Source of the DNA: Mya arenaria
Taxonomy: Eukaryota; Mollusca; Bivalvia; Myida; Myidae
Length of the DNA stretch: 64,000 bases
Reading direction: 5' to 3'
Assembly (NCBI RefSeq): GCF_026914265.1
Contig: NC_069136.1
Span: forward strand, 37,112,862-37,176,861
In this document: positions 8,549 through 59,925 of the stretch, piece by piece
How the letters are laid out: each line of letters begins with the position of its first letter
Numbering within the stretch: position 1 is the first letter of the stretch
The notes under the pieces: generated by a model
Told to the model about the DNA's origin: nothing
Seen by the model: the letters and a program-made list of their open reading frames with translations, nothing else
Databases searched by the model: none
Made by a program: the position numbers and the translations under genes

Positions 8549-8587
8549 AGGGATCCATAATATTTTCCAACTTGAAGGAACAAACTA

Positions 8588-27560: not shown

Positions 27561-27821
27561 TACTTTTTCTTGGTATATATGGAGATTTATGTTGTTTTAA
27601 CTTACTGTTGAAGAGAAAGGTCGCGGACTGTTTTTTTGTAAATATGGAGACGAGAATTAACATAATGGTGTTGTATCTAGAGTCAATGTTGCAGAGAAAA
27701 TTTTCTGAACACCATTTCGAGTCGTTGTTGTAGAGAAGGTCCTATGATTTCATTATCGTAAATGTGGAACCGTGAAGCACATTCAGTCTGCAAATGGATT
27801 CACTGTAGTGGAAATATCCTG

Positions 27822-31276: not shown

Positions 31277-32087
31277 GAATTCCTTGTCCCAAAACCGCCA
31301 GGCCAACATATTTGATATTTGATATGTGGCATCCATTATAGGTCCTCTACCACATTACATGAGGTTATGCCCCTGTGGTCATATTGTAAAGAATTATGCC
31401 ATTGGCCAAATAGGTAATAATTCTCCATATTTATTCATCTTTTTTATTTTTCCAGATTATAGAAACTTACTTGTCTTGGATACATAAGGGGCAGATCCGA
31501 TATTTGACGCAAGAGGGGGCCTAACTTAGGGGCGTTGCGACCCTCTCTCAGAACCGAAATTTATTCGGAAAAAAGTGTTGGCAGGGGGATTGGGGGTACA
31601 TTTTGCTCTTTTCAGTCCTTTATGATGCAATTTGGGCGTGTTTTATTACCTCTTGTCTCATTTATTGAAATAAAAAGTAAACTGGGATGATTTTTAGGGG
31701 GATGGGCGCCGGGTGCGCCCCCCCCCCACCCTTGATCCGCAAGTGAAAACTCTAAACGATTTTAATTTTTGATAATTATCAAACAAGCTATGTTATAAAC
31801 TACATTACTTAACTTACATTAATAATATATGTATATAAATACATTGCACACACATTTTCGTTATCTGAACTTGATAAACGTTGGATCATGTGATATAGAT
31901 AGGCTTATCAAATGTATGGCCTTTTGAAACGTTGTTCATATTTCTAAATCGGAAGTGGGTGGATATCAGTCTAAAATATTTAACCAAGGGTGAGCATTGC
32001 TAAATTAAAAGTAGATGAATGTTTCACCTGACGAAACGTTTAAGCTTGTTTTATACATTAAAAGGGATATAACTTAACTAGAAAACT
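31277..32087. other. Spacer upstream of the TRIM-like gene, with an old repeat
   Basis: It holds the degraded repeat at 31490-31746 and then 340 bp of AT-rich sequence that should include the promoter and 5' UTR of the gene at 32088. Short matches to the DNA upstream of the paralogue at 62291 (CTAAATCG-AAGT, AAAGTAGAT) suggest part of the upstream region was duplicated with the gene. No TATA box stands out. Confidence 0.5.
31490..31746. mobile_element. Degraded GC-ended repeat, related to 9690-9905
   Basis: It runs from GGCAGATCCGATATTTGACG to CCCTTGATCCGCAAGTG. The ends form a rough inverted repeat around GGATC. The interior matches the 9690 copy (GGGGGCCTAAC, GGGCGTGTTTTATTACC, AAAAAGTAAACTGGGATGAT). 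No clear TSD. Confidence 0.5.
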
Positions 32088-33869
32088 ATGGCTACCGATG
32101 GATTTGAAGATACACTTCTAGAATGTGGAAGTGACGCCGTCGGTGGTAGAATAGGGAGCAAGTGTGAACCTTGTCGTCGTCGCGCCAGGTCAGAGGTGGC
32201 TTCGTTGTTCTGTAATACATGCAAGGTATATCTATGCGATGACTGCTGTGATGGACACAAGGTGCACATGACAAACGTGGATGAACATAACATCGTTGCA
32301 GCCCATGAAGCCGGTGTCAAGCCAGATGTCGATATGAAGAGACTGGATCAGTGTTGTGAACATAAACGAGTTTTCATGTTTCACTGTGAAGACCACGAAG
32401 ATTTGTGTTGTGAAATATGTGCCTTTTCTTGTCATCGTAGATGCGATAATATCCACGAAATAGCAAAAGTCGCTAAGAATGTGAAAGATGATGAAAAGGA
32501 AACGATACGTGCATCCTATATCACTGCCTCAGAAGTTATAAGGAAATGCGAGGAGGATCAATTGAACAACGTTTCGCGAGTAGAAGAAATCGTTAAAGAA
32601 ATTGATATTTACAAGGAAGACATATTGACAAAAATTGAGGAAGCCAAGTCGAGAATTGTCAACGAAATGACTAATCATAACACACAGGAAGACGAACGTC
32701 TAAATACGAGAAGAAACGCGGCTGAAATCCTGAAGAGAGAACTTGACACGCACTTGGCAATGCCAGATAACGTTCGCGAGAATGGAACGGAATCGGAAAT
32801 ATTCATTCTAAATCATATTCTCAAAAGGACGCAAGCCAAGGCATCACAGACACTGAACACTTTGTTGAAGAATGATTACACCGTCAAAGTGGGACTAGAA
32901 ATCAACGAAAACATTTTAAAAATAACAAATACTGATTTCGCACTATTCTCATTAAATAAAACACTAGAACCAAACACACAATTGTTGAATGGAAACGATG
33001 TAATCAAAACAGCAAAAATCTCTACATACGAGAAACAAACATACCAACAAAGGCCAGTGCGTCTGGAGCTTTTAAAGGCCATGGAGCTCGTGAAGACAGG
33101 AGACGACCAGATTGAGCCGTTTGTTATTGGGCTGGACTACCTGCCGGACGGGAGGATCGTCGCGGTGGATAACTTGAACTGTAAATGTTTTATTTTGAGT
33201 GACACATTGAAGAGGTTCGACACATTTTATAGGTTTAAGACATATCCTAGGGGCGTAACTTTTTACTCTGATAACAATATTGCAGTAACCGTCAGTAACG
33301 GATATATCTGCCTGCTGACTGTGGGCAGTGACAACACGATCACGCTGATGAAGACGCTGACCACGTCCTACTACTGCTTCTCCATCTGTCCCCTGAACGA
33401 CCGCACGTTCGTAGTGAGCACTTTTGACGACTCGAGGCCTGCCAGGATGATTGACGTGGACGGCAAGGAGAGCGACTTTGACAACGTGAAGTTTCCTGGA
33501 AAGACGTATAAGCGTGGTGAAAATCAATGTACCTACATACAATCACGGGGTACTCTGGTCCTTACAGACATGGATGCTCACACAGTTCACATGTATAACA
33601 CCGTATCCAGCAAGGTCAAGGAGGTTAAAGATGACCGGATTCGTAAACCAAGAAGAGCATGTGTTGGCCCAGATGACTCCGTGTTTGTGTGCAGTGACAA
33701 GACAAACTCCATCATCCAGATATCACCCGACGGGGACATACTGGTGTCATGTGACTTCGACATGAAGTTTCCGGTAGACGTTGCCGTCTCCAGGGATGGC
33801 TCAAGAATGGCCGTGATCAACAGTTCGGGAGGCGAGAGAAAACTGAAACTGTTTAAAATAATACAATAA
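32088..33869 (+). CDS. TRIM-like protein (two B-boxes, coiled coil, NHL-like propeller), RING-less
   Basis: An intact single-exon 593-aa ORF. Residues about 26-68 form a B-box1-like zinc finger (CEPC, CNTC, CDDC, then His residues). Residues about 88-123 form a B-box2 with C-x2-H-x7-C-x2-H-x4-C-x2-C-x4-H-x2-C spacing. Residues about 130-265 are a charged helical, coiled-coil region. Residues about 320-593 contain NHL-like propeller strands (YLPDGRIVAVDN, VGPDDSVFVCSD, VAVSRDGSRMAV). No RING finger precedes the B-boxes, so intrinsic E3 ligase activity is unlikely. Such proteins act in innate immunity and signalling in animals; the bivalve expansions are largely uncharacterised. The start is the first ATG, shared with the paralogue at 62291, which aligns without gaps. 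Overlapping minus-strand ORFs are shadows. Confidence 0.92.
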   Translation: MATDGFEDTLLECGSDAVGGRIGSKCEPCRRRARSEVASLFCNTCKVYLCDDCCDGHKVHMTNVDEHNIVAAHEAGVKPDVDMKRLDQCCEHKRVFMFHCEDHEDLCCEICAFSCHRRCDNIHEIAKVAKNVKDDEKETIRASYITASEVIRKCEEDQLNNVSRVEEIVKEIDIYKEDILTKIEEAKSRIVNEMTNHNTQEDERLNTRRNAAEILKRELDTHLAMPDNVRENGTESEIFILNHILKRTQAKASQTLNTLLKNDYTVKVGLEINENILKITNTDFALFSLNKTLEPNTQLLNGNDVIKTAKISTYEKQTYQQRPVRLELLKAMELVKTGDDQIEPFVIGLDYLPDGRIVAVDNLNCKCFILSDTLKRFDTFYRFKTYPRGVTFYSDNNIAVTVSNGYICLLTVGSDNTITLMKTLTTSYYCFSICPLNDRTFVVSTFDDSRPARMIDVDGKESDFDNVKFPGKTYKRGENQCTYIQSRGTLVLTDMDAHTVHMYNTVSSKVKEVKDDRIRKPRRACVGPDDSVFVCSDKTNSIIQISPDGDILVSCDFDMKFPVDVAVSRDGSRMAVINSSGGERKLKLFKIIQ

Positions 33870-34859: not shown

Positions 34860-37800
34860 AGAAAGTGCCAACGTGTCAATGTCGAAATGATATAACGAAG
34901 GTGTCAATGTTGAAATATACAGCCAACGTGTCAATGTCGAAATGATATAACGAAGGTGTCAATGTTGAAATATACAGCCAACGTGTCAATGTCGAAATGT
35001 AATAGCCAACGTGTCAATGTCAAAATGCCATAGAAGAATGCCAACGTGTCAATGTGATAATGTCAAAGTCACTGTGTCAATCTCGAAATTTCACAGCCAA
35101 CGTGTCATTGTCGAAATTTCATAGCCAACGTGTCATTGTCGAAATTTCATAGCCAACGTGTCATTGTCGAAATGCCTTAGCAAATGTGTGTATGTCGAAA
35201 TGTCATAGCCAACCTGTTATTGTCGAAATGCAATAGCCAACTTGACAATGTGTCGAAATGATATAGTCAACGTGACAATGTCGAAATGTCACAGCCAACG
35301 TGTCAATGTCCAAATGTCACAGCCAATGTGTCAATGTCCAAATGACATAGCCAACGTGTCAATGTCGAAATGCCACAGCCAACGTGTCAATGGTAAAATG
35401 ATAAAGCCAACATGCCAGTGTCGAAACGTCATAGCCAACGTGTCAATAGCGAAATGTCATAGCCAACGTGTCAGTGTCGAAATGTCATAGCAGACGTGTC
35501 AATGTCGAAATGTCACAGCAGACGTGTCAATGTCGAAATGTCACAGCCAACGTGTCATTGTCCAAATGATAAAGCGAAGTGTCAGTGTCGAAATGACATA
35601 GCAAACGTGTCAATGTCGAAATGCCATAGTAAACGTGTCATTCTCGAAATGTCATAGCAAACGTGTCAATGTCAAAATGATATATTCAACGTGTCAATGT
35701 CGAAATGTCATAGCAAACGTGTCAATGTCGAAATGCCATAGCAGACGTGTCAATGTCGAAATGTCACAGCCAACGTGTCATTGTCCAAATGATAAAGCGA
35801 AGTGTCAGTGTCGAAATGACATAGCAAACGTGTCAATGTCGAAATGCCATAGTAAACGTGTCATTCTCGAAATGTCATAGCAAACGTGTCAATGTCAAAA
35901 TGATATATTCAACGTGTCAATGTCGAAATGTCATAGCAGACGTGTCAATGTTGAAATGCCATAGCAAACGTGTCAATGTAAAAATGATATAGCCAACGTG
36001 TCAATGTCGAAATGTCATAGCCAACGTGTCAGTGTCGAAATGTCATAGCAAACTTGTCAATGTCAAAATGTCATAGCAAACGTGTCAGTGTCGAAATGCC
36101 ATAGTAAACGTGTCATTCCCGAAATGTCATAGCAAACGTGTCAATGTCAAAATGATATATTCAACGTGTCAATGTCGAAATGTCATAGCAAACGTGTCAA
36201 TGTTGAAATGCCATAGCAAACGTGTCAGTGTCGAATGTCAGAGCCAACGTGTCAGTGTCGAAAGGTCAGAGCAAACGTGTCAATGTCAAAATGAATTAGC
36301 CAACGTGTCAGTGTCGAAATGTCATAGCAAACTTGTCAATGTCAAAATGTCATAGCAAACGTGTCAGTGTCGAAATGCCATAGTAAACGTGTCATTCTCG
36401 AAATGTCATAGCAAACGTGTCAATGTCAAAATGATATATTCAACGTGTCAATGTCGAAATGTCATAGCAAACGTGTCAATGTTGAAATGCCATAGCAAAC
36501 GTGTCAATGTCAAAATGAAATAGCCAACGTGTCAGTGTCGAAATGTCATAGCAAACTTGTCAATGTCAAAATGTCATAGCAAACGTGTCAGTGTCGAAAT
36601 GTCATAGCAAACGTGTCAATGTCGAAATGTCATAGCAAACGTGTCAGTTTCGAAATGAAATAGCCAACGTGTCAGTGTCGAAATGTCATAGCAAACGTGT
36701 CAATGTCGAAATGTCATAGCAAACGTGTCAATGTCAAAATGAAATAGCCAACGTGTCAGTGTCGAAATTTCATAGCAAAAGTGACAATGTCGAAATGTCA
36801 TAGCAAACGTGTCAGTGTCGAAATGTCATAGCAAACGTGTCAGTGTCGAAATGTCATAGCAAACGTGTCAGTTTCGAAATGAAATAGCCAACGTGTCAGT
36901 GTCGAAATGTCATAGCAAACGTGTCAATGTCAAAATGTCATAGCAAACGTGTCAGTGTCGAAATGTCATAGCAAACGTGTCAGTGTCAAAATGTCATAGC
37001 AAACGTGTCAGTGTCAAAATGTCATAGCAAACGTGTCAGTGTCGAAATGTCATAGCAAACGTGTCAGTGTCGAAATGTCATAGCAAACGTGTCAGTGTCG
37101 AAATGTCATAGCAAACGTGTCAGTGTCGAATGTCATAGCAAACGTGTCAGTGTCGAAATGTCATAGCAAACGTGTCAATGTCAAAATGAAATAGCCAACG
37201 TGTCATTGTCGAATGTCATAGCAAACGTGTCAGTGTCGAAATGCCATAGCAAACGTGTCAATGTCAAAATGAAATAGCCAACGTGTCAGTGTCGAAATGT
37301 CATAGCAAACTTGTCAATGTCAAAATGTCATAGCAAACGTGTCAGTGTCGAAATGTCATAGCAAACGTGTCAGTGTCGAAATGTCATAGCAAACGTGACA
37401 ATGTCGAAATGTCATAGCAAACGTGTCAGTGTCGAAAGGTCAGAGCAAACGTGTCAATGTCGAAATGTCATAGCAAACGTGTCAGTGTCGAAATTTCATA
37501 GCAAAAGTGACAATGTCGAAATGTCATAGCAAACGTGTCAGTGTCGAAATGTCATAGCAAACGTGTCAGTGTCGAAATGTCATAGCAAACGTGTCAGTGT
37601 CGAATGCCATAGCAAACGTGTCAGTGTCGAAATGTCATAGCAAACGTGTCAGTTTCGAAATGAAATAGCCAACGTGTCAGTGTCGAAATGTCATAGCCAA
37701 CGTGTCAATGTCGAAATGCCATAGCAAACGTGTCAATGTCAAAATGAAATAGCCAACGTGTCAGTGTCGAAATGTCATAGCAAACTTGTCAATGTCAAAA

Positions 37801-39500
37801 TGTCATAGCAAACGTGTCAGTGTCGAAATGTCATAGCAAACGTGTCAGTGTCAAAATGTCATAGCAAACGTGTCAGTGTCGAAATGTCATAGCAAACGTG
37901 TCATTGTCGAAATGTCATAGCAAACGTGTCAGTGTCGAATGTCATAGCAAACGATTCAGTGTCTAAATGTCATAGCAAACGTGTCAGTGTCGAATGTCAT
38001 AGCAAACGTGTTATTGTCAAAATGTCATAGCAAACATGTCAGTGTCGAAATGTCATAGCAAACATGTCAGTGTCGAATGTCATAGCAAACGTGTCAGTGT
38101 CGAATGTCATAGCAAACATGTCAATGTCGAAAGGTCAGAGCAAACGTGTCAATGTCGAAATGTCATAGCAAACGTGTTATTGTCAAAATGTCATAGCAAA
38201 CGTGTCATTCTCGAAATGTCATAGCAAACGTGTCATTGTCGAAGTGTCATAGCAAACGTGTCATTGTCGAAATGTCATAGTAAACGTGTTATTGTTGAAA
38301 TGTCATAGCAAACGTGTCAATGTCGAAATGTCATAGCAAACGTGTCAGTGTCGAATGTCATAGCAAACGTGTTATTGTCAAAATGTTATAACAAACATGT
38401 CAGTGTCGAATGTCATAGCAAACATGTCAATGTCGAAATGTCATAGCAAACGTGTCAGTGTCGAATGTCATAGCTAACGTGTTATTGTCAAAATGTCATA
38501 GCAAACGTGTCAGTGTCGAATGTCATAGCAAACATGTCAATGTTGAAATGCCATAGCAAACGTGTTATTGTCAAAATGTCATAGCAAACGTGTCATTCTC
38601 GAAATGTCATAGCAAACGTGTCATTGTCGAAGTGTCATAGCAAACGTGTCATTGTCGAAATGTCATAGTAAACGTGTTATTCTCGAAATGTCATAGCAAA
38701 CTTGTCAATGTCAAAATGAAATAGCCAACGTGTCAATGTCGAAATGCCATAGCCAACGTGTCAATGTCGAAATGTGATAGCCAACGTGTCATTGTCAAAA
38801 TGATATAGCCAAAGTGTCAGTTTCGAAATGACATAGCCAATGTGTCAATGTCGAAATGCCATAGCAAACGTGTCAATGTCAAAATGAAATAGCCAACGTG
38901 TCAATGTCGAAATGCCATAGCCAACGTGTCAATGTCGAAATGTGATAGCCAACGTGCCATTGTCAAAATGATATAGCCAAAGTGTCAGTTTCGAAATGAC
39001 AAAGCCAACGTGTCAATGTCGAAATGCAATAGCAAATGTGTCAATTTCGAATGTCACAGGCAACGTGTCTTTGTCAAAATGATAAAGCCATCGTGTCAGT
39101 GTCGAAATGACATAGCCAACGTGTCAATGTCGAAATGTCACAGCCAACATGTCAATGTCGAATTGCCATAGCCAACGTGCCAATGTCGAAATGATATAGC
39201 GAACGTGTCTATGTCAAAATATCGTTGCCAACGTGTCAAAGCCGAAAGGTCACAGCCAAAGTGCCAATGTCTCGAACGGTCACAGTGGAGGTGTCAATGG
39301 CGAAATGCTGTGGCTATAATTTCATTGTCGGAATGTCATAGCCAAGGTTTCATTGTCGAAATGTCAAAGCCAAGGTTTCAATGTTACACGCAAGTTTTCA
39401 ATGTCGAAATATTAGCTAAAGTGGCAACGTTAAAATGTCAAAGTCAAGGTGTTAATGTCGAAATTTAATAGCCAGCGTCTCAATGTTGAAATGGCATAGC
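34860..39500. repeat. 28-bp minisatellite array, about 165 copies
   Basis: The unit is 28 bp (CATAGCAAACGTGTCAGTGT + CGAAATGT). Both ends are heterogeneous (CAGCCAACGTGTCAATGTCG types, with insertions of other short words). The centre, about 36000-38700, is dominated by AGCAAACGTGTCAGTGTCG. Larger blocks recur: the run around 35600-35760 repeats with few changes around 35830-36000, 36100-36200 and 36380-36500. Three units make 28 codons, so short ORFs (MSMSKCHSQRVNVEMS) appear by periodicity alone. Confidence 0.97.
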
Positions 39501-40019
39501 AAAAGTTTCGAAGGAAGCATATCACGTAAGGCATATATACGCGGATGTATATGTATAACTTAAAGTGACAATGTCAAAGCCTAAATAACAATCAAAAATA
39601 ATGATGACGATGGCAATGCACCGTTTCCAATTTACACCAAATGCACGTGTTTCTTTCTACTCTGTACATTGTGTAAAGGGGAGCAAATCTTGCTAGTTCA
39701 TTAATTAGAACATATCTGTTATATTTAAACATAAGAGTAATGGTTCATTTTAGTATCAAGGTTATTGACTAAAAATAATTTAAATCATCAAAAAATCACT
39801 TCGTAGGTAATTATTGTTCTTTTTATGCACATACCAGTTAAGGTATTATCTTTATTTTCCTAAGTATATAGAAGTACATTGCTTAACTTGATATTGAATT
39901 TATTAATTAAACCTTTTAAAATGTACTTGATCATTGTACTGGACATAGCATATTTGTGTGGTTTGTTTGTTTGCAGATATATACAGTGGACTATTTCAAC
40001 ATTTTGGTTACTATCCTTC
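39501..40019. other. AT-rich spacer before the LINE
   Basis: No gene found. The exact 5' boundary of the LINE is not visible because no target-site duplication could be matched to its 3' flank. Confidence 0.45.
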
Positions 40020-40259
40020 AATAGTAGTCCCTAGATTTGTTTTAAGGTGAACGAGATGAAAAAGAAAAAAATAAGGTGAATGAGACCCATTGGCGTTCCC
40101 CAACCTACCAAGTATAGGAATATGCTAAGGGGATTAAATATGGCGGACAGTACACATCGGAAATTTTACCTGTAGTGAAAAAATGGATTTTCAATGATTG
40201 ATTAATTTAATAAGTGGATCTAAACCAAGTGGATTGAAAGTGAAATAGAATCTAAGGCA

Positions 40260-41519
40260 ATGGAATTCAGTGAATTACTATCAGATTTGACACAAGACCA
40301 GGAGAACCAGGATTTATTTTCAAGCGCGGGAGAAAGAGCAGGAGAACAATGGCGAGTCGTCGGCGGCAAGAGGGATCCGAAGCGTAAACGTGCAGATACA
40401 GGTAGTGTCGAACTGGACTCTTTCCAAACCATGAGCACGGACAGTAAGTTAAATGTTCTATTTACAAAAATCGACACAGTGGAAAAAGCTCAAAGCTCTG
40501 TGATACAGGTAGAGGCCAGCCTTGAGCAGTTGAAACACAAAATTGAGGAGCATGACGATAAAATAACAACTTTAACATATAAGCTCATAGACCTACAAGC
40601 AAGGGAGAAACGTTGTAATGTGATTATTTATGGGCTAGACGATGATCAGAGGAAAGAAATTTACGATCTAGTTAGTGATTTTCTCTATGACATGAACTTA
40701 GACCCTGACGAGTTTTATATAGAACATGCAGAAAGGTTGGGTTCCACACAGCGCCCCGGTCAGCGTAGAGCTCGTCCGCTTATAGTGACGTTCCGTTCAC
40801 AAACGGAAGTCGACGCGGTCATGCGCAATGCAAGATATTTGGCTGGGTCGAGATGCGCCGTGGATAGGGACTATCCAATAGAGATACGAAACGCAAGGAA
40901 AAGATTATGGCCAAAGTTTAAGGAATGCAAATCAAATCGTGCCAACAGAGTGCAACTAAAATATCCCGCCGAACTCGTTGTAAATAACCGAACGATTATA
41001 AATGAATTCCCGAACTGGCATACTTTACTAGCAAAACCCATACCCCGACGTTCTACGCCATATGTAACTAGTGAAACCGCGCCGACACGAGATCCGTCGG
41101 CGTTTCAAGCGGTGAGTGGCGTTTTGGGTTCGACATCCAGTGGTAAAGTTGTGTCAGGTGAGGACGTGCCCCTTAGCACGACGGGATCTGCCGAGCCAGC
41201 GCTTACACAGCAACAGACCAGTAGCAGGCCTTTTCCGGAACATGTGCCACTTACGCAGACGGCTGGTGACATCAGTAATCTGACATATTCGCAGACATTA
41301 TCGCAGTCATTGATTTCAGGTACTCCGATTAACAGTGCTATTGTTGATAAACAAAGTGCACGTGGTCGACCCCGATCACGTGGCCAGTCATCAACTAATC
41401 GGAGCAGACCGAGATCAGCCAGCGCTAAGCCAGCGATTACCACGTCACGAAAGAAGACACAGCTGACCAATCAGAGCGTGGTTTCAAATAGTGAACCGCC
41501 TACTGGGGTTAATACCTAG
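40260..41519 (+). CDS. LINE ORF1: coiled-coil/RRM RNA-binding protein
   Basis: 419 aa. The ATG at 40260 has G at -3 and G at +4. Residues about 60-118 are helical with heptads (VEASLEQLKHKIEEHDDKIT). RCNVIIYGLDDDQ at about 120 is the first strand of a non-canonical RRM. RPLIVTFRSQTEVDAVMRNA, then RDYPIEIRNARKRLW, forms the C-terminal basic domain seen in L1-type ORF1p (Transposase_22). The last 80 residues are a basic Ser/Arg-rich tail (GRPRSRGQSSTNRSRPRSAS). Known role of the family: trimeric RNA chaperone that coats LINE RNA. It ends at a UAG (41517-41519) in the same frame as ORF2. GC content is clearly higher than in ORF2. Confidence 0.9.
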   Translation: MEFSELLSDLTQDQENQDLFSSAGERAGEQWRVVGGKRDPKRKRADTGSVELDSFQTMSTDSKLNVLFTKIDTVEKAQSSVIQVEASLEQLKHKIEEHDDKITTLTYKLIDLQAREKRCNVIIYGLDDDQRKEIYDLVSDFLYDMNLDPDEFYIEHAERLGSTQRPGQRRARPLIVTFRSQTEVDAVMRNARYLAGSRCAVDRDYPIEIRNARKRLWPKFKECKSNRANRVQLKYPAELVVNNRTIINEFPNWHTLLAKPIPRRSTPYVTSETAPTRDPSAFQAVSGVLGSTSSGKVVSGEDVPLSTTGSAEPALTQQQTSSRPFPEHVPLTQTAGDISNLTYSQTLSQSLISGTPINSAIVDKQSARGRPRSRGQSSTNRSRPRSASAKPAITTSRKKTQLTNQSVVSNSEPPTGVNT

Positions 41520-44500
41520 GACGGTTGTAGTACTACCGGTGTATACATAAACAATGTAAATAGTACAGTTAAATTTGCTTTATTGAACATTCAGGGATTA
41601 AAACTTAAGCGTATAAACAAACTTGAAAGTAATGATTTACGATTGATATTTGATAAGAATGATATTATATGTTTAACTGAGACTTGGGGAAGTGATGATT
41701 TAGATTTTACAGTTAGTGGATTTCAACATGTAGTCTTAAATAGAAAAGAGAAACTTAAAGGCAGTACTCGAAATTCAGGTGGAATAATTTTATATATTAG
41801 AGATAAGCTAGCAAGTACAGATATGTGTGTTATGCAACAAAATGATTCTCATTTTTGGGTTAAATTAGATGGAAAACATTTTAATCTTATGACTGACTTG
41901 CTGATTTGTGTATGTTATATCATACCGGCTAACTCCAGCAGAAGTGCACTTGTAGAAAATAGTACTTTTGACAATATTTTAGACAATATCGCCCATTTTC
42001 AGAGCGCAGGGGGAGATAATAAATATACGTTTATGATTCTAGGCGATTTTAATTCACGCATAGGAAATTTACATGATTTTGTCGAGGATGATAATGTTGA
42101 ATTATCAAATCTAAATATTTTACCTGATGATTACATTGCAGATCGATTTTTAGCCAGAAATAATAAAGATTTAAATGTTAATTCGAATGGACGACTGTTG
42201 ATTGATTTTTTAAAACAGTCCGGGATGAGAATAGCTAACGGGCGTGTATGCGGTGATTGTGGTGATTTTACTTATGTTGGCAGTAATGGGTCAAGTGTGG
42301 TAGATTACTGTATTGTGAGCGAACATTTATTAAATGTTTTTCAGTGTTTTGTCAATCATGGACCAAATATTTTATCGGATCACTGTCTAATAGAATTTTC
42401 ATTGTTGAATAATGTTAAGCGAAACGATTATAATATAGATTGCGAACAAAATGAAAGTTATGCGCCTGGGTTAAATATGAATGCATATTATAAGTGGAAC
42501 ACAGAACATAAAGATGTCTATATGAAAAGTATTAATGATATTGATTTTATAAACCATGTACAACAACTAAATAGTGATATAAGTAATATTGCTTCAAATA
42601 GTGACATAGACTTATGTATAGAGACATTGTTATATCATATTGATAGTGTTTGTAAACCATTATTTGAGAAACATTCTAAAACATTTTCTGACTGTCATGA
42701 TTTGCATAGAAATGCAAAAGGTGGTGACGCCTTATTTTCAGATATATGTATTGAAAGTAGAAAATACTTTTATAACAAATTAAATATGTATAGGCGTGAG
42801 AAAACTGCAGAGAATAGAATAAGTATGATACAAGCAAGAAGTGTGTATAAGAAAAATGTAAGATCTTTTAATTACAATAGAAGTAGAATAAAAACCCAAG
42901 ATTTGTTAAAGGCACGTTTTAAAAACGCTAAGTTGTATTGGAATATGTTAAAAGAGACTGTCACACATAAATCACCAAAGAATATCTCATTAGAAACATT
43001 TACTGAATACTTTAAAGCTATAAATAATCCTGGGAGTAGATTTTTTCAGGCTGATGAAGATGTATTATTTTTTAATAATCAGCTATTAGGGAGTGAAATG
43101 AAAACTATGTTTGCAGAATTAGACATGCCATTTACTATTGTTGATATAGATAAAGGCATATCAGAATTGAATCTGGGGAAAAGTGGAGGCCCTGATAGAA
43201 TTATTAATGAATTCTTGTATTATGGTAAAAATATATTTACTTTAGTATTAACAAACCTTTTTAATAAAATATTAGAAGTAGGCTATTTTCCTAAATCATG
43301 GGGAGAAGGCTATTTAGTGCCTATACACAAGAAAGGAAGTGTTAGTGAAGTAAGCAATTTTAGAGGAGTAACTTTATTAAGTGTTATAGGAAAACTGTTC
43401 ACCAAAATTATTAATACTCGCTTAACAAGATGGGCTGAGAATTATTATGTGTACGTCGAAGCTCAAGCGGGTTTTAGAGCAAAGATGGGCACTGTTGACA
43501 ATGTTTTTGTTCTAAACGCATTAATAAATCATTGTTTAAATAATAATGACAAGCTATATTGTTTATTTGTGGATTATTCCAAGGCATTCGATTATATTGT
43601 TAGGCCAAATATTTGGCAAAAGATATATAGACTAGGTATAAGAGGTAAATTATTTAATATTATAAAGTCAATGTATAATACTATTTGCTCACGTGTTAAG
43701 TTACTGGGTAAAACAGGTGATGCCTTTGAATGTTTACTCGGTGTCAGGCAAGGTGAAAGTTTGAGTCCATTTTTATTTGCAATGTATCTAAACGATTTAG
43801 AGGAAGAGCTTATGACAAAAGGTGCAAATGGCATTGATATAAATACACTAAAAATATTCCTGTTGATGTACGCAGACGATATTGTTATTTTTGCAACTAC
43901 ACCAGCAGATATGCAATCAAATTTAGATATTCTGGAGCAATACTGTAAACGCTGGAAATTAATTGTTAATATAGATAAAACAAAGATAGTTGTGTTTAGA
44001 AAAGGCGGTAGACTGCCTAATGATTTGAACTTCCGTTATGAGGGTGGGAATATTGAGATTGTTAACAAATATTGTTATCTGGGTATTGTTTTCACGCGTG
44101 GTGGTTCGTTTCAAAATACATGCAAGACATTAGCTGGCCAAGCGCTAAAAGCTATTTTCAAGTTGAAGAGATACTTATTTCATTTCACTAATATTTCCGT
44201 AGAACATATCTTAGATCTTTTTGATAAGCTGGTTAAGCCTATCTTATTTTATGGATGTGAGGTTTGGGGATTTACAGATGCATTGTGTGTAGAACGCATA
44301 CATACTTTATTTTGCAAATCAATACTGAAAGTTAAGACATCAACGCAAAACGATTTTGTATATAACGAGCTGGGACGCTTAGACTTTGTTCATCTACGTT
44401 ATGTATCTATTCTTAAATACTGGTTTAAAGTGATAGAGTGCTCGGATAGAAAATTTATTAACAATGTGTATAAAATGTTGTTAAGAGACATTGATATTAG

Positions 44501-45071
44501 ACCAAGAAAAAAGAACTGGGCCGCTAGTGTTAGAGACATGCTGTGTAATTTTGGGTTCAATGAGGTATGGTTAACACAAGGTGTTGGTGATATAAATGTA
44601 TTTATCAGCTTGTTTAAGCAAAGAGTCAAAGATAACTTTATTCAAAATCTTAATAGTCGGATAAATGATTCATCTAGAGCAACGTTTTATATATCTCTCG
44701 GTAATTTTGAATACCAAGCATACTTGAATATTGTTAATGTAGAAAAATATAGAATTGCTATGTCACGGTTAAGACTTAGTTCTCATCGTTTACTTATAGA
44801 AACTGGACGATGGTCAAATGTACCAAGAGAAAATAGGATCTGTAATTTATGCCAAGTACTTGAAGATGAATACCATTTTTTGATGGAATGTAATCTTTAT
44901 AATACTATTAGAGATAAATATATAAAACGATATTATAGACTTAGGCCTAGTATGTATAAGACTGTACAACTTTTGCAGTCCGAAAACGTTAATACTGTAA
45001 GAAACTTATCAGCATACATATATCATGCTTTTGAATTAAGAAAATTAAGAATGAGTGTAAACACGACTTAG
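41520..45071 (+). CDS. LINE ORF2: AP endonuclease / reverse transcriptase polyprotein
   Basis: Open from directly after the ORF1 UAG to TAG at 45069. The endonuclease begins at about 41565 (VKFALLNIQGLK). Its motifs are CLTETWG (about 41670), LGDFNSRIG (about 42036), VVDYCIV (about 42300) and the catalytic LSDHC (about 42373). The reverse transcriptase has NFRGVTLLSVIGKLF, VDYSKAFDYI, GVRQGESLSPFLFAMYLND and the catalytic LMYADDIVIF (YADD at 43869). A CX2CX7HX4C zinc-like motif lies at about 44841-44891. No ATG occurs in frame between the UAG and the endonuclease core; the first is after about 41820, which would remove LNIQGL and the catalytic Glu of TETW. Translation therefore needs stop read-through or a non-AUG start (for example TTG at 41583). 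Confidence 0.9.
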   Translation, partial: DGCSTTGVYINNVNSTVKFALLNIQGLKLKRINKLESNDLRLIFDKNDIICLTETWGSDDLDFTVSGFQHVVLNRKEKLKGSTRNSGGIILYIRDKLASTDMCVMQQNDSHFWVKLDGKHFNLMTDLLICVCYIIPANSSRSALVENSTFDNILDNIAHFQSAGGDNKYTFMILGDFNSRIGNLHDFVEDDNVELSNLNILPDDYIADRFLARNNKDLNVNSNGRLLIDFLKQSGMRIANGRVCGDCGDFTYVGSNGSSVVDYCIVSEHLLNVFQCFVNHGPNILSDHCLIEFSLLNNVKRNDYNIDCEQNESYAPGLNMNAYYKWNTEHKDVYMKSINDIDFINHVQQLNSDISNIASNSDIDLCIETLLYHIDSVCKPLFEKHSKTFSDCHDLHRNAKGGDALFSDICIESRKYFYNKLNMYRREKTAENRISMIQARSVYKKNVRSFNYNRSRIKTQDLLKARFKNAKLYWNMLKETVTHKSPKNISLETFTEYFKAINNPGSRFFQADEDVLFFNNQLLGSEMKTMFAELDMPFTIVDIDKGISELNLGKSGGPDRIINEFLYYGKNIFTLVLTNLFNKILEVGYFPKSWGEGYLVPIHKKGSVSEVSNFRGVTLLSVIGKLFTKIINTRLTRWAENYYVYVEAQAGFRAKMGTVDNVFVLNALINHCLNNNDKLYCLFVDYSKAFDYIVRPNIWQKIYRLGIRGKLFNIIKSMYNTICSRVKLLGKTGDAFECLLGVRQGESLSPFLFAMYLNDLEEELMTKGANGIDINTLKIFLLMYADDIVIFATTPADMQSNLDILEQYCKRWKLIVNIDKTKIVVFRKGGRLPNDLNFRYEGGNIEIVNKYCYLGIVFTRGGSFQNTCKTLAGQALKAIFKLKRYLFHFTNISVEHILDLFDKLVKPILFYGCEVWGFTDALCVERIHTLFCKSILKVKTSTQNDFVYNELGRLDFVHLRYVSILKYWFKVIECSDRKFINNVYKMLLRDIDIRPRKKNWAASVRDMLCNFGFNEVWLTQGVGDINVFISLFKQRVKDNFIQNLNSRINDSSRATFYISLGNFEYQAYLNIVNVEKYRIAMSRLRLSSHRLLIETGRWSNVPRENRICNLCQVLEDEYHFLMECNLYNTIRDKYIKRYYRLRPSMYKTVQLLQSENVNTVRNLSAYIYHAFELRKLRMSVNTT

Positions 45072-45610
45072 TGTACGGTTACATTGTATTTGAATAACGG
45101 TACTCTTTATGCTAGACGTAGAATGTATATATGAAATACAACAGATTAATAAATTATTCGAAATTTGTTGACACACATTAACCGGTATCGATGACAACCA
45201 TACATATTTGTACGTACAAGCCTGATTTTTGTATTCCATAGCCTATCTTTCTGTTAAAAACTTAGTCCAAACTAGCAAAACATTATTGAAGTTATTTGTA
45301 GATAATGAGTACAGTAGTAACGAGAATTGCTTATCAAAATTCATGGTATCATTGTAGTGTTGTGCATACGTCATACGGTTGATAGATATGTATTTAAGTT
45401 ATAACTCATAACCGATAAAGACAATTATATTAAATTATATGAATATAGTTGTTAAATCTGTGAATATATGAATAGAGTCAATCAATCTGTTCCGCCATAC
45501 ATGTATATATAAGTCATTGTATTACATTGATTTGATCACGGGTCATGTTGGCCTATTTCAAATATGTATTGTGTGATATATTTCTTTGAATAAACTTTCT
45601 TCTTCTTCTA

Positions 45611-46149: not shown

Positions 46150-49100
46150 TTTTAACAATTGATAACTGATGCTTGTATTGTTGGGGTGCAGAGTGAAACG
46201 TTTGATGATGCTTGTATTGTTGGGCTGCAAAGTAAAACGTTTGATCACTGATACTTGTACTGTTGGGGTGCAAAGTGAAACGTTTGATGATGCTTGTATT
46301 GTTGGGCTGCAAAGTAAAACGTTTGATAACTGATGCTTGTACTGTTGGGGTGCAAAGTTAAATGTTTTATAACTGATGCTTGCATTGTTGGGGTGCAAAG
46401 TGAAACGTTTGATAACTGGTGCTTGTAATGTTTGGGTGCAAAGTGAAATGTTTGGTAACTGATATTTGTATTGTCGGGGTGCAAAGTGAAACGTTTGATA
46501 ACTGATGCTTGTATTGTTGGGGTGCAAAGTGAAACGTTTGATAACTGATGCTTGTATTGTTGAAGTGCAAAGTGAAACGTTTGATAACTGATGCTTGTAT
46601 TGTTGGGGTGCAAAGTGAAACGTTTGATAACTGATGCTTGTATTGTTGGGGTGCAAAGTGAAACGTTTGATAACTGATGCCTACATTGTTGAAGTGCAAA
46701 GTGAAACGTTTGATAACTGATGCTTGTATTGTTGGGGTGCAAAGTGAAACGTTTGATAACTGATGCTTGTATTGTTGGGGTGCAAAGTGAAACGTTTGAT
46801 AACTGATGCTTGTATTGTCGGGGTGCAAAGTGAAACGTTTGATAACTGATGCTTGTATTGTTGGGGTGCAAAGTGAAACGTTTGATAACTGATGCTTGTA
46901 TTGTTGGGGTGTAAAGTGAAACGTTTGATAACTGATGCCTACATTGTTGGGGTGCAAAGTGAAACGTTTGATAACTGATGCTTGTATTGTTGGGGTGCAA
47001 AGTGAAACGTTTGATAACTGATGCTTGTATTGTTGGGGTGCAAAGTGAAACGTTTGATAACTGATGCTTGTATTGTTGGGGTGCAAAGTGAAACGTTTGA
47101 TAACTGATGCTTGTATTGTTGGGGTGCAAAGTGAAACGTTTGATAACTGATGCTTGTATTGTTGGGGTGCAAAGTGAAACGTTTGATAACTGATGCTTGT
47201 ATTGTCGGGGTGCAAAGTGAAACGTTTGATAACTGATGCTTGTATTGTCGGGGTGCAAAGTGAAACGTTTGATAACTGATGCTTGTATTGTTGGGTGCAA
47301 AGTGAAACGTTTGATAACTGATGCCTACATTGTTGGGGTGCAAAGTGAAATGTTTGGTAACTGATATTTGTATTGTCGGGGTGCAAAGTGAAACGTTTGA
47401 TAACTGATGCTTGTATTGTTGGGGTGCAAAGTGAAACGTTTGATAACTGACGCTTGTATTGCCGGGGTGGAAAGTGAAACGTTTGATAACTGATGCTTGT
47501 ATTGTCGGGGTGCAAAGTGAAACGTTTGATAACTGATGCTTGTATTGTCGGGGTGGAAAGTGAAACGTTTGATAACTGATGCTTGTATTGTTGGGGTGCA
47601 AAGTGAAACGTTTGATAACTGATGCTTGTATTGTTGAAGTGCAAAGTGAAACGTTTGATAACTGATGTTTGTATTGTTAAAGTGCAAAGTGAAACGTTTG
47701 ATAACTGATGCTTGTATTGTTGGGGTGCAAAGTGAAACGTTTGATAACTGATGCTTGTATTGTTGAAGTGCAAAGTGAAACGTTTGATAACTGATGTTTG
47801 TATTGTTGAAGTGCAAAGTGAAACGTTTGATAACTGATGCCTACATTGTTGGGGTGCAAAGTGAAACGTCTGATAACTGATGCTTGTATTGTTGGGCGCA
47901 AAGTGAAACGTTTGATAAATGATGTTTGTATTGCTGGGGTGCAAAGTGAAACGTTTGATAACTGATGCTTGTATTGTTGGGGTGCAAAGTGAAACGTCTG
48001 ATAACTGATGCTTGTATTGTTGAAGTGCAAAGTGAAACGTTTGATAACTGATGCCTACATTGTTGGGGTGCAAAGTGAAACGTTTGATAACTGATGCTTG
48101 TATTGTTGGGGTGCAAAGTGAAACGTTTGATAACTGATGCTTGTATTGTTGAAGTGCAAAGTGAAACGTTTGATAACTGATGCTTGTATTGTTGAAGTGC
48201 AAAGTGAAACGTTTGATAACTGATGCCTACATTGTTGGGGTGCAAAGTGAAACGTTTGATAACTGATACTTGTATTGTTGAAGTGCAAAGTGAAACGTTT
48301 GATAACTGATGCTTGTATTGTTGAAGTGCAAAGTGAAACGTTTGATAACTGATGCTTGTATTGTTGAAGTGCAAAGTGAAACGTTTGATAACTGATGCTT
48401 GTATTGTTGAAGTGCAAAGTGAAACGTTTGATAACTGATGCCTACATTGTTGGGGTGCAAAGTGAAACGTTTGATAACTGATGCTTGTATTGTTGAAGTG
48501 CAAAGTGAAACGTTTGATAACTGATGCCTACATTGTTGGGGTGCAAAGTGAAACGTTTGATAACTGATGCTTGTATTGTTGGGGTGCAAAGTGAAACGTT
48601 TGATAACTGATGCTTGTATTGTTGAAGTGCAAAGTGAAACGTTTGATAACTGATGCTTGTATTGTTGAAGTGCAAAGTGAAACGTTTGATAACTGATGCC
48701 TACATTGTTGGGGTGCAAAGTGAAACGTTTGATAACTGATGCTTGTATTGTTGGGGTGTAAAGTGAAACGTTTGATAACTGATGCCTACATTGTTGGGGT
48801 GCAAAGTGAAACGTCTGATAACTGATGCTTGTATTGTTGGGCGCAAAGTGAAACGTTTGATAACTGATGTTTGTATTGCTGGGGTGCAAAGTGAAACGTT
48901 TGATAACTGATGCTTGTATTGTTGGGGTGCAAAGTGAAACGTTTGATAACTGATACTTGTATTGTTGAAGTGCAAAGTGAAACGTTTGATAACTGATGCT
49001 TGTATTGTTGGGGTGCAAAGTGAAACGTTTGATAACTGATGCTTGTATTGTTGGAGTGCAAAGTGAAACGTTTGATAACTGATGCCTACATTGTTGGGGT

Positions 49101-50560
49101 GCAAAGTGAAACGTTTGATAACTGATGCTTGTATTGTTGAAGTGCAAAGTGAAACGTTTGATAACTGATGCCTACATTGTTGGGGTGCAAAGTGAAACGT
49201 TTGATAACTGATGCTTGCATTGTTGGGGTGCAAAGTGAAACATTTGATAACTGATGCTTGTATTGTTGGGGTGCAAAAACACGTTTGATAACTGATGCTT
49301 GTATTGTTTGGGTTCAAAGTGAAACGTTTGTTAACTGATGCTTGTATTGTCGGGGTGCGAGGTCAAACGTTAGATAACTGATGCTTGTATTGTTGGAGTG
49401 CAAAGTGAAACATTTGATAACTGATGCTTGTATTGTTGGGGTGCAAAAAAACGTTTGATAACTGATTCTTGTATTGTTGGGGTGCAAAGTGAAACGTTTG
49501 ATAACTGATTTTTGTATTGTTTCGGTGGAAAGTGAAACGTTTGATAACTGATTCTTGTATTGATGGGGTGCAAAATGAAACGTTTGATAACTGATGCTTG
49601 TATCGTTAGGGTGTAAAGACAAACGTTTGATAACTGATGTTTGTATTGTTTGGGTGCAAAGTGAAACGTTTGATAACTGATGTTTGCATTGTTTGGGTGC
49701 GAACTCAAACGTTTGATTACTGATGCTTGTACTGTTGGGGTGCAAAGTGAAACGTTTGATAACTGATGTTTGTATTGTTGGGGTGCAAAGTGAAACGTTT
49801 GATAACTGATGCTTGTATTGTTGGGGTGCAAAAAAAACGTTTGATAACTGATTCGTGTATTGTTGGGGTGCAAAGTGAAACGTTAGATAACTGATGCTTG
49901 TATTGTTGGGGTGCAAAGTGAAACGTTTGATATCTGATGCTTGTATTGTTGGTGTTCAAAGTGAAACGTTTGTTAACTGATGCTTGTATTGTCAGGGTGC
50001 GAGGTCAAACGTTTGATAACTGATGCTTGCATTATTGGGGTGCAAAGTGAAATGTTTGATAACTTATGCTTGTTTTGTTAGCGTGCAAAGTGAAACGTCT
50101 GATAACTTATACTTGTTTTGTTGGAGTGCAAAGTGAATCGTTTGATAACTGATGCTTGTATTGTTGGGGTGCTAAGTGAAACGTTTAATAAGTGAAGCCT
50201 GTATTATGGGGGTGCAAAGTGAAGCGTTAAATAATTGAAGCTTGTACTGTTGGGGTGCAAAGTGAAACGTTTGATAACTGATGCTTGTATTGTTGGGGTG
50301 CAAAAAAAACGTTTGATAACTGATTCGTGTATTGTTGGGGTGCAAAGTGAAACGTTTGATAACTGATGTTTGTACTGTTGGGGTGCAAAGTGAAACGTTT
50401 GATAACTGATGCTTGCATTGTTTGGGTGCAAAGTGAAACGTTTGATAACTGATGCTTGCATTGTTTGGGTGCAACGTGAAACATTTGATAACTGATGCAC
50501 GTATTGTTGGGATAACTGATGCCTGTATTTTTGGGGTGCAAAGTGAAACGTTTGATACAA
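46150..50560. repeat. 43-bp minisatellite array, about 102 copies
   Basis: The unit is 43 bp (GTGCAAAGTGAAACGTTTGA, TAACTGATGCTTGTATTGTT, GGG). The core at 46500-49200 is highly homogeneous. The right edge (49250-50560) is diverged. Sequence variants GCCTACATTG, TTGAAGTGC and GTCGGGGTG recur at multiples of 43 bp, with a patchy higher-order pattern. The minus-strand unit has no stop in any of its three frames. Overlapping minus-strand ORFs up to 611 codons (cycling HPNNTSISYQTFHFAPQQYK) are therefore expected by chance and are not called as genes. Confidence 0.97.
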
Positions 50561-55907: not shown

Positions 55908-55984
55908 TTCTCTGATCGTTCCAAGGCAGTGACCCAAACATAAGCTTATTAATATTTTCTGATTCATTTGTAAAGTGATTTGTT

Positions 55985-57770
55985 TTGTTTATGGCATTCC
56001 TTTGTTGTTTTGTGTGTGGCATGACTGTGTTGTTTTGTATGTGGTATGACTGTGTTGTTTTGTATGTGGTATGACTGTGTTGTTTTGTGTGTGGTATGAC
56101 TGTGTTGTTTTGTGTGTGGTATGACTGTGTTGTTTTGTATGTGGTATGACTGTGTTGTTTTGTGTGTGGTATGACTGTGTTGTTTTGTGTGTGGCATGAC
56201 TGTGTTGTTTTGTATGTGGCATGACTGTGTTGTTTTGTGTGTGGTATGACTGTGTTGTTGTGTATGTGGCATGACTGTGTTGTTTTGTGTGTGGTATGAC
56301 TGTGTTGTTTTGTATGTGGCATGACTGTGTTGTTTTGTGTGTGGTATGACTGTGTTGTTTTGTATGTGGCATGACTGTGTTGTTTTGTATGTGGCATGAC
56401 TGTGTTGTTTTGTATGTGGCATGACTGTGTTGTTTTGTGTGTGGCATGACTGTGTTGTTTTGTGTGTGGCATGACTGTGTTGTTTTGTATGTGGCATGAC
56501 TGTGTTGTTTTGTAAGAGGCATTCCTTTGTTGTTTTGTATGTGACATGACTGTGTTGTTTTGTATGTGGCATGACTGTGTTGTTTTGTATGTGGCATGAC
56601 TGTGTTGTTTTGTGTGTGGTATGACTGTGTTGTTTTGTGTGTGGCATGACTGTGTTGTTTTGTATGTGGCATGACTGTGTTGTTTTGTGTGTGGTATGAC
56701 TGTGTTGTTTTGTATGTGGCATGACTGTGTTGTTTTGTGTGTGGTATGACTGTGTTGTTTTGTATGTGGTATGACTGTGTTGTTTTGTGTGTGGTATGAC
56801 TGTGTTGTTTTGTATGTGGCATGACTGTGTTGTTTTGTATGTGGTATGACTGTGTTGTTTTGTATGTGGCATGACTGTGTTGTTTTGTGTGTGGCATGAC
56901 TGTGTTGTTTTGTAAGAGGCATTCCTTTGTTGCTTTGTATGTGGCATGACTGTGTTGTTTTGTGTGTGGTATGACTGTGTTGCTTTGTATGTGGTATGAC
57001 TGTGTTGTTTTGTATGTGGTATGACTGTGTTGTTTTGTATGTGGTATGACTGTGTTGTTTTGTGTGTGGTATGACTGTGTTGTTTTGTGTGTGTTATGAC
57101 TGTGTTGTTTTGTAAGAGGCATTCCTTTGTTGCTTTGTATGTGGCATGACTGTGTTGTTTTGTATGTGGCATGACTGTGTTGTTTTGTATGTGGCATGAC
57201 TGTGTTGTTTTGTAAGAGGCATTCCTTTGTTGTTTTGTATGTGGCATGACTGTGTTGTTTTGTATGTGGTATGACTGTGTTGTTTTGTGTGTGGTATGAC
57301 TGTGTTGTTTTGTGTGTGGCATGACTGTGTTGTTTTGTAAGAGGCATTCCTTTGTTGCTTTGTATGTGGCATGACTGTGTTGTTTTGTGTGTGGTATGAC
57401 TGTGTTGTTTTGTGTGTGGTATGACTGTGTTGGTTTGTGTGTGGTATGACTGTGTTGTTTTGTAAGAGGCATTCCTTTGTTGCTTTGTATGTGGCATGAC
57501 TGTGTTGTTTTGTATGTGGCATGACTGTGTTGTTTTGTATGTGGTATGACTGTGTTGTTTTGTGTGTAGTATGACTGTGTTGTTTTGTGTGTAGTATGAC
57601 TGTGTTGTTTTGTGTGTAGTATGACTGTGTTGTTTTGTATGTAGTATGACTGTGTTGTTTTGTATGTAGTATGATTGTATTGTTTTGTGTGTAACATGAC
57701 TGTGTTGTTTTGTATGTGGTATGACTGTTTTGTTTTGAATGTAGTATGACTGTGTTGTTTTGTGTGTACC
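55985..57770. repeat. 25-bp minisatellite array, part 1 (about 71 copies)
   Basis: The unit is TGTGTTGTTTTGTATGTGGC + ATGAC. Variants are TATG/TGTG, GGCATG/GGTATG, and a different AAGAGGCATTCCTTTG unit recurring at intervals (56515, 56914, 57114, 57213, 57341, 57469), which marks a higher-order repeat. The plus strand is rich in G and T. Minus-strand units lack stops in all frames, giving ORFs up to 622 codons (NNTVMPHTKQHSHTTHKTTQ) that I regard as by-products. Confidence 0.97.
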
Positions 57771-58239
57771 CGTGGTGATATATTTGTCAAAAGCTGAACT
57801 TCACCTTTCCCTGAAAAAGTGTTCATATACATTTTCTAATAATTTTAAAGACCTTTATTGTTTTGAAATTGGTAAAATTAAAGCCAGCCTATGTTCGTCA
57901 CGTGTACGTTAAGTTAGCGGCCTAGCAGCCTAGCGGCCTAGCGGCATTAATGTAGCGGCCATAGCGAAACAAACAACTTTAGGCCGCTCGCCAGACCGCC
58001 AACTTTACGCCGCTAGGCCGCTAGGCCACTAGGCCACTAGGCCGCTAATCTTACAAAGCTAGGCCGCTCAGCCGCTAATTTCACGCCGCTAGGCCGCTCA
58101 GTCATGTTCATCTAACCTTCTTAATTGAATAAACTTTCAAGGAAATGCAGGTTGTCTTGTTATGAAATTAACGATTAAAATTTTGAATTACGTTAATCAC
58201 ATTTATAAAGTTTTGACAACGACTTCAAGTATTACAAAG
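57771..58239. repeat. 470-bp unit splitting the 25-bp array, copy 1
   Basis: From GTGATATATTTGTCAAAAGC to CTTCAAGTATTACAAAGTT. It is about 98-99% identical to 60299-60763, with a 4-bp length difference and about six substitutions seen by eye. The centre holds TAGCGGCC words facing GGCCGCTA words, a strong foldback. On the minus strand an acceptor AACACTTTTTCAG is followed by KGEVQLLTNISPRV, resembling the small exon at 28792. No terminal inverted repeats. Confidence 0.9.
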
Positions 58240-59925
58240 TTGTGTTGTTTTGTGTGTAGTATGACTGTGTTGTTTTGTGTGTAGTATGACTGTGTTGTTT
58301 TGTATGTAGTATGATTGTATTGTTTTGTGTGTAACATGACTGTGTTGTTTTGTATGTGGTATGACTGTGTTGTTTTGAATGTAGTATGACTGTGTTGTTT
58401 TATGTGTAGTATGACTGTGTTGTTTTGTGTGTGGTATGACTGTGTTGTTTTGTGTGTAACATGACTGTGTTGTTTTGTATGTGGTATTACTGTGTTGTTT
58501 TGTGTGTAGTATGACTGTGTTGTTTTGTGTGTGGTATGACTGTGTTGTTTTGTGTGTGGTATGACTGTGTTGTTTTGTGTGTAGTATGACTGTGTTGTTT
58601 TGTATGTAGTATGATTGTATTGTTTTGTGTGTAACATGACTGTGTTGTTTTGTATGTGGTATGACTGTGTTGTTTTGAATGTAGTATGACTGTGTTGTTT
58701 TATGTGTAGTATGACTGTGTTGTTTTGAATGTAGTATGACTGTGTTGTTTTGTGTGTAACATGACTGTGTTGTTTTGTATGTGGTATTACTGTGTTGTTT
58801 TGTGTGTAGTATGACTGTGTTGTTTTGTGTGTGGTATGACTGTCTTGTTTTGTGTGTGGTATGACTGTGTTGTTATGTATGTAGTATGACTGTGTTGTTT
58901 TGTGTGTAGTATGACTGTGTTGTTTTGTGTGTTGTATGACTGTGTTGTTTTGTGTGTGGCATGACTGTGTTGTTTTGTGTGTGGCATGACTGTGTTGTTT
59001 TGTGTGTGGCATGACTGTGTTGTTTTGTGTGTGGTATGACTGTGTTGTTTTGTGTGTGGCATGACTGTGTTGTTTTGTGTGTGTCATGACTGTGTTGTTT
59101 TGTGTGTGGCATGACTGTGTTGTTTTGTGTGTGGCATGACTGTGTTGTTTTGTGTGTGGCATGACTGTGTTGTTTTGTGTGTGGCATGACTGTGTTGTTT
59201 TGTGTGTGGTATGACTGTGTTGTTTTGTGTGTAGTATGACTGTGTTGTTTTGTGTGTGGTATGACTGTGTTGTTTTGTGTGTGGCATGACTGTGTTGTTT
59301 TGTGTGTGGCATGACTATGTTGTTTTGTGTGTGCCGTGACTGTGTTGTTTTGTATGTTGTATGACTTTGTTGTTTTGTATGTGGTATGACTGTGTTGTTT
59401 TGTGCGTGGTATGACTGTGTTGTTTTGTGTGTAATATGACTGTGTTGTTTTGTGTGTGGTATGACTGTGTTGTTCTGTATGTGGTATGACTATTTTGTTT
59501 TGTATGTGATATGACAATGTTGTTTTTTATGTGTCATGACTGTGTTGTTTTGAATGGGATATGACTCTGTTGTATTGTATGGTGCATGACTGTGTTATTT
59601 TGTATAAGATATGACTATGTTGTTTTGTATGTGATATGAATATGTTGCTTTGTATATGGTATGACTCTGTTGTTTTGTTTTTGATAAAACTCTGGTGTTT
59701 TGTATGTGGAATGACTGTGTTTTTTTTGTGATATAACTGTGGTGTTTTATATGTGGTATGACTGTGTTGTTTTGTATGTGATAAGCCTGTGGTGTTTTGT
59801 TTGAGACATGAATGTGTTGTTTTATATGTAGTATGACTGTGTTGTTTTGTATGTGACAGACTGTGTTGTTTTGTATGTGATATGTCTGTGTTGTCTTGTA
59901 TGTGGTATGACTGTGTTTGTTAATA
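58240..59925. repeat. 25-bp minisatellite array, part 2 (about 67 copies)
   Basis: The same 25-bp unit as part 1, with GTAGTATGAC and GTAACATGAC variants commoner. A multi-unit block at 58240-58480 recurs at 58580-58800 and also at 57570-57760 in part 1, supporting segmental duplication. The right edge, from about 59330, is increasingly diverged. Minus-strand ORFs are artefacts. Confidence 0.97.

Follow-up and report, generated by a model that had tools for sequence, protein, structure and literature searches.

How the polymerase of a long interspersed nuclear element (LINE) is made, when its open reading frame (ORF) lies behind a stop codon and begins without a start codon, is the question raised by an element located in a 64,000-nt stretch of the genome of Mya arenaria (the window, within which coordinates are given as positions). 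In this copy, ORF1 and ORF2 share one frame and are separated by one UAG codon, and the whole endonuclease is encoded without an AUG. The UAG was found to be conserved across families of related elements. On the evidence of the sequence, the UAG is probably read through to yield an ORF1p-ORF2p fusion. According to this model, ORF1p would be produced by ordinary termination at the UAG, and in a fraction of ribosome passages the UAG would be decoded as an amino acid, such that ORF2p (endonuclease and reverse transcriptase) would arise only as the C-terminal part of the fusion. The fusion would be the working enzyme, and a low read-through rate would set the ORF1p:ORF2p ratio.

The ORF1-ORF2 junction in the window copy

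A first-pass annotation of the window had claimed that ORF1 ends at the TAG at 41517-41519 and that the same frame then stays open for more than 1,180 codons. This was confirmed: the ORF2 frame (41520-45068) comprises 1,183 codons, covers both the endonuclease and the reverse transcriptase, and is followed by a 3' untranslated region and the (TTC)n tail. The stop context was as claimed (ACC-TAG-GAC-GGT), and no in-frame ATG was present ahead of the motifs LNIQGL and TETWG, which are located at codons 22 and 53 after the UAG, the first ATG being codon 102. All six ATGs between 41520 and 41823 are out of frame, and each runs into a stop within 1-5 codons. The chance that one uniformly placed stop in 1,603 codons would hit a given 20 codons is about 1% and, because the placement is this improbable and recurs across related families, the arrangement of the junction is considered to be beyond chance. 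The out-of-frame start-stop AUGUAA at 41554-41559 was also present at the same spot in loci L045 (family F3) and L074 (F14), and no AUGUAA start-stop was present shortly 3' of the UAG in the F2 sequences L044 and L048.

The element (Table 1) is, by its sequence and structural models, a two-ORF LINE with a separate ORF1 upstream, an apurinic/apyrimidinic endonuclease (APE)-type domain N-terminal to the reverse transcriptase, and a repeat-type 3' end. About the same two ends were found in L011, L012, L013, L016 and L017 (98.6-99.5% identity; L016 is internally deleted), and the 5' truncated copies L009, L010 and L014 share the same TTC-rich 3' end. The LINE is active-looking and its family appears to be young. 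ORF2 matched Pfam PF03372, PF14529 and RVT_1, and the PDB sequences that it matched best included human L1 ORF2p chains; a profile search of the PDB with the endonuclease gave no match at E <= 0.01. A fold search with the predicted endonuclease model matched the human L1 endonuclease. In this model, residues 1-12 had a predicted local distance difference test (pLDDT) score below 50 and the first strand spans residues 19-23. As model residue 12 was aligned with residue 3 of the human L1 endonuclease, the domain would start right after the UAG, which supports the earlier proposal that the endonuclease begins shortly past the stop.

The predicted ORF1 product has a long, coiled-coil-like helix (60-116), an NVIIYGL...LIVTF core, which we take to be RRM-like, and a basic C-terminal tail. 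The confidence of this structure model was low (mean pLDDT 38.9), and ORF1 sequence searches of Pfam and the PDB gave no match above thresholds. Across 40260-45068 the GC content fell from 0.47 in ORF1 to 0.31 in ORF2, with the change about at the UAG, as if the two ORFs had separate histories or constraints.

Table 1. Features of the LINE copy, given as positions in the window
Feature	Position	Strand	Remark
Full-length LINE copy	40129..45609	+	(TTC)n tail just 3' of AATAAA (45589-45594)
5' untranslated leader, 131 nt	40129..40259	+	
ORF1, 419 codons then UAG	40260..41519	+	ATG at 40260
In-frame UAG between ORF1 and ORF2, proposed read-through site	41517..41519	+	
Post-UAG linker, codons 1-11, predicted to be disordered	41520..41552	+	In-frame AUG absent
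Endonuclease domain, predicted DNase I/APE fold	41553..42399	+	Best structural matches are human LINE-1 endonuclease
Out-of-frame AUG with UAA directly after	41554..41556	+	First AUG for a scanning post-termination ribosome
First in-frame AUG of ORF2, codon 102	41823..41825	+	3' of LNIQGL and TETWG
Reverse transcriptase domain (RVT_1)	43323..44045	+	
ORF2 terminal stop	45069..45071	+	TAG in this copy

Conservation of the UAG across copies and families

The outcome that the first-pass annotation had named as speaking against read-through was a UAG private to this copy. For the most part the reverse was observed: a UAG in the same frame was kept in 14 of 16 aligned copies of the window family (the family of the copy in Table 1) and in 37 of the 38 junctions read in some 20 other families. 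A single genome was searched (1.216 Gb, 18 contigs). The DNA search with the junction gave 40 scored matches of 64 candidates, of which 15 are single sites and 25 belong to one array on contig C9, and the aligned set consisted of the window copy and L009-L023, with L015 taken from the array. All eight array junctions matching a fixed-flank pattern were TAG; this pattern favours unchanged copies, and L015 had been counted already. The array itself (G000:C9:31130000-31224000; L015, L024-L026) is a tandem amplification of the junction part, in which pieces of ~0.9 kb are repeated inside longer repeats. When the ORFs of nine copies were checked, both were intact except for the UAG in the window copy and in L013; L010 and L014 had an intact ORF2 and a truncated 5' part, and L009, L011, L012, L016 and L017 were broken.

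Related families were sampled with an endonuclease protein search (134 matches scored of 2,989 candidates), a second protein search, for which the distant relative F10 was the query (136 of 3,367), and another search (150 of 12,974). Outside the window family 41 loci were read, starting with the best matches and continuing with long or intact copies and new families, the last five being from groups unsampled until then. The junction was contained in 38 of these (8 + 18 + 7 + 5), and L057 and L075 were truncated and lacked it. Sorting by sequence similarity and by eye, with part of the pairs measured, gave about 21 families including that of the window; F18-F21 are represented by 12-36 bases each, with linkers and ORF1 unseen. 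In the endonuclease, the relatives were 36-58% identical to either the window family or a single distant relative (76% between F2 and F3), and their open ORF2 frames were 1,145-1,183 codons long. For five of the 38 junctions the place and frame were fixed before the letters were read, and all five were UAG (L099 is a copy of F17). A recount by pattern covered 33 of the 38 and missed L046, L049 and L069, which were read directly as TAG.

The layout of the junction was also shared. The UAG was located 12-21 codons ahead of the LN.Q motif in all 17 families in which the linker was read, and an ORF1 tail was open in frame upstream in 15 of the 17, as judged by eye, being not visible in F5 and F14. 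The absence of an AUG, whose conservation the first-pass annotation had proposed to test, was conserved, as was the UAG itself, with no in-frame AUG ahead of LN.Q in 16 of the 17 families; in F15 the motif itself opens with an AUG, and in F8 no in-frame AUG occurs until the interval between the two motifs. Differences in linker length between close relatives (L070 and L071 of F13; L019) were multiples of three. A mini-ORF before the UAG in F11 and F12 was considered and rejected, because the sibling loci L083, L084 and L086 carry the ORF1 tail, and the short copies are therefore 5' truncated. No open frame exceeded 1,183 codons among the 134, 136 and 150 scored matches; hence these rows hold no intact ORF1-ORF2 fusion. 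Beyond this genome, no relatives were found in IMG/VR (three scans), GTDB contigs (one scan) or phages. Among plasmids, the reverse transcriptase region of ORF2 had a single distant match, in Alicyclobacillus (NZ_CP104070.1, 20406-21611; tblastn 24% identity, E 2e-25), at a locus without an annotated feature.

The identity of the stop codon was conserved far beyond its surroundings. Across the 17 families the UAG columns had zero entropy, compared with 0.83-1.95 bits in all 24 flanking columns. Fourfold-degenerate sites were at near random identity in all pairs except among F2, F2b and F3, in a comparison of 10 endonuclease sequences from 9 families with 23-53 sites per pair and hence a large scatter. 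In the six families in which the stop at the end of ORF2 was read, it was TAA in four and TAG in two, whereas the junction was UAG in all six (Fisher p = 0.06). With free exchange of stops and TAG at one third, the probability of UAG in all of 8 saturated lineages is about 5e-4, which is a guide and not a test, as the lineages share ancestry. A first stop of conserved identity followed by a variable second one is a comparative mark of programmed read-through, and on these alignments it appears to be present here. In flies and mosquitoes, read-through candidates typically keep the first stop perfectly while the second varies, perhaps because the stops differ in the residue inserted or in the rate that they set (PMC5100048). 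The Drosophila and Anopheles genes resemble the clam LINE in this pattern (PMC5100048) and differ from it in that their stops are mostly TGA and the products are host proteins lengthened at the C terminus rather than a retrotransposon polymerase.

These data bear on the notion that the copies are dead and that the UAG arose in them as a nonsense mutation by chance or simply closes ORF1. Seven of the nine window family copies checked are indeed broken or truncated. However, two full-length copies are intact except for the UAG, which is conserved where synonymous sites are near random and keeps a 12-21-codon spacing to LN.Q in 17/17 families. This explanation is already contradicted by the conservation data and has next to no probability.

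The shared frame and the missing AUG also bear on whether ORF2p might be a separate protein, made when translation terminates at the UAG and starts again, or starts internally, at a non-AUG codon near the endonuclease (at an AUG in F10). A separate ORF2p has been proposed for human L1 and described for SART1. Coupled re-initiation and unconventional initiation are the LINE routes given in reviews (PMC5972666, PMC2881922), non-AUG codons are usable in viral re-initiation (PMC3542737), and the in-frame AUG at codon 6 in F10 suits such a route. This possibility was nevertheless judged unlikely. Re-initiation has no need of UAG over UAA or UGA, yet UAG was present in 37/38 other-family junctions, and it would not require the linker to be in the ORF1 frame, as it is in the 15 of 17 families with ORF1 visible. 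By eye, the junctions inspected had no near-cognate start codon in common, and the first AUG available to a scanning ribosome in the window copy (41554) lies out of frame with a stop directly behind it. A crude scan for upstream motifs resembling a termination upstream ribosome-binding site (TURBS) gave hits in 3/17 families, at differing places. An AUG of the SART1 type, overlapping or adjoining the ORF1 stop, was not found, 16 of the 17 families having no in-frame AUG before LN.Q.

Stop context, RNA structure and evidence against read-through

The base following the UAG (+4) was G in 13 of the 17 families, C in two, A in one and T in one (purine in 14/17). The non-purines were C in F4 and in L081, the representative of F16, whose siblings L082 and L087 have G, and T in F17. 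The 3' context, whose conservation the first-pass annotation had proposed to test, was thus not strictly conserved. UAG followed by G or a purine corresponds to the type III viral read-through context, in which a 3' structure is usually part of the signal (PMC3542737). In a Drosophila read-through gene, the strength of termination was UAA > UAG > UGA (PMC13170385); as UAA terminates best, the retention of UAG and avoidance of UAA fit a leaky stop. For UGA to be avoided as well, the rate would have to be capped or a particular residue favoured.

The preference for a G after the UAG might also indicate a second role of the UAG as a 3' splice site (UAG/G) that joins an upstream AUG exon to ORF2. 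As the sole stop codon ending in AG, UAG would be fixed by termination and splicing together, and the +4 G in 13/17 families and the absent AUG would be accounted for. This is considered highly improbable: a polypyrimidine tract is absent (mean pyrimidine 0.39 at -18 to -3, compared with 0.42 farther upstream), a further AG is present within 20 nt upstream in 14/17 families, and a spliced RNA containing only ORF2 would not hold the entire element.

A-to-I editing of UAG to UIG in some transcripts would likewise open the frame, as at the amber/W site of hepatitis delta virus, UIG being decoded as tryptophan (PMC3542737), and the TGG at the junction of the decayed copy L022 fits it. Editing requires a duplex, however, and a conserved duplex around the stop was not found. 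Reverse-copied edited RNAs should leave TGG copies, and only 1/54 junctions (16 + 38) is TGG. UGA would do equally, which leaves the strict UAG unexplained. Editing as the source of the open frame is accordingly very unlikely. Re-initiation, editing, splicing and chance each explain less of the data than read-through.

Several results weigh against read-through. The 80 nt following the stop, where the first-pass annotation had suggested looking for a conserved RNA structure, yielded none: local folding after the UAG, scored without pseudoknots, was no better than that of shuffles in 8/9 families (z > -2), with F8 as the outlier (z = -3.1), and a scan for proximal-distal duplexes, also without pseudoknots, found no shared long-range pairing (F3 alone, z = -3.1). 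The rate would therefore have to come from the stop context alone, from an undetected or family-specific element, or from a host factor. Among the 38 junctions, L082 (F16) has TAA, its siblings L081 and L087 having TAG, and the two exceptions in the window family are L022 (TGG) and L023 (AAG), both about 91-93% identical and with other stops. In L055 (G000:C6:46017617-46021435) a deletion joins ORF1 in frame to part of the endonuclease, with loss of the UAG and of LN.Q; L055 and L022 are decayed copies whose frames run across the junction. F10 has an in-frame AUG six codons past the UAG (GVMTEVKV) and could therefore re-initiate. The families are all related and from one genome, and are therefore not independent draws. 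Close pairs show few linker substitutions, too few for an estimate of coding constraint in the linker. There is also a warning precedent in Tca2 of Candida albicans, a long terminal repeat (LTR) element, unlike the LINE described here, with an in-frame gag-pol stop: the stop was taken for read-through and a reporter test gave no evidence of it (PMC7175516).

The F10 junction has a further peculiarity. In L063, L067 and L078 the UAG is succeeded by an out-of-frame AUG GGG UCA UGA, the terminal UGA of which overlaps the sole in-frame AUG; this overlap is a possible stop-restart site.

Elsewhere in the window, long minisatellites were observed at 5082-8551 (62-bp unit), 24812-27562 (80 bp), 34870-39503 (28 bp), 46159-50511 (43 bp) and 55980-59917 (25 bp), the last with strong GC and AT skew. 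A single-frame ORF of 595 codons at 32082-33869 (+) is presumably TRIM-like: it matched the B-box weakly, with an E-value of 9e-5 that falls narrowly short of the Pfam cut-off, and NHL weakly as well.

Relation to known systems

In arrangement the element resembles gammaretroviral gag-pol, a type III system of UAG-G with a pseudoknot. There, two ORFs share one frame across one UAG, mostly with G next, and the second encodes the polymerase (PMC3542737). The clam element differs in being a LINE without LTRs, and no conserved 3' structure or pseudoknot was found, pseudoknots lying outside the scans. SART1 of Bombyx is also a two-ORF LINE, with ORF2 translated by ribosomes fresh from ORF1 (PMC5972666, PMC2881922); its UAAUG stop-start overlap contains an AUG, whereas the clam LINE shares the frame and has no AUG. 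In human LINE-1 the two ORFs are set apart by a 63-nt spacer and ORF2 starts with an AUG (PMC5972666), and the clam LINE has neither. For mammalian L1, an unknown, novel type of initiation was described in a recoding review (PMC5009743). No published LINE with UAG read-through between its ORFs was found among the titles and abstract openings listed by full-text literature searches; single elements of this kind may have been noted in Repbase Reports.

How LINEs produce ORF2p is a standing question. If the read-through model is true, a gag-pol-like lineage would be a third answer beside re-initiation and unconventional initiation, with a set ratio of the two proteins and a covalent link between ORF1p and ORF2p. 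A more tentative extension, possible although doubtful, is that a whole old lineage of animal LINEs produces its polymerase only as a UAG-decoded fusion, without a viral-type RNA structure, and that the host germ line may decode UAG unusually well, through context, a natural suppressor tRNA or RNA editing. The approximately 20 natural variants of one UAG junction are a resource for studying the causes of UAG leakiness in this host. Annotation pipelines in which ORF2 is called from the first AUG, or the UAG is scored as a lesion, would mis-annotate such elements.

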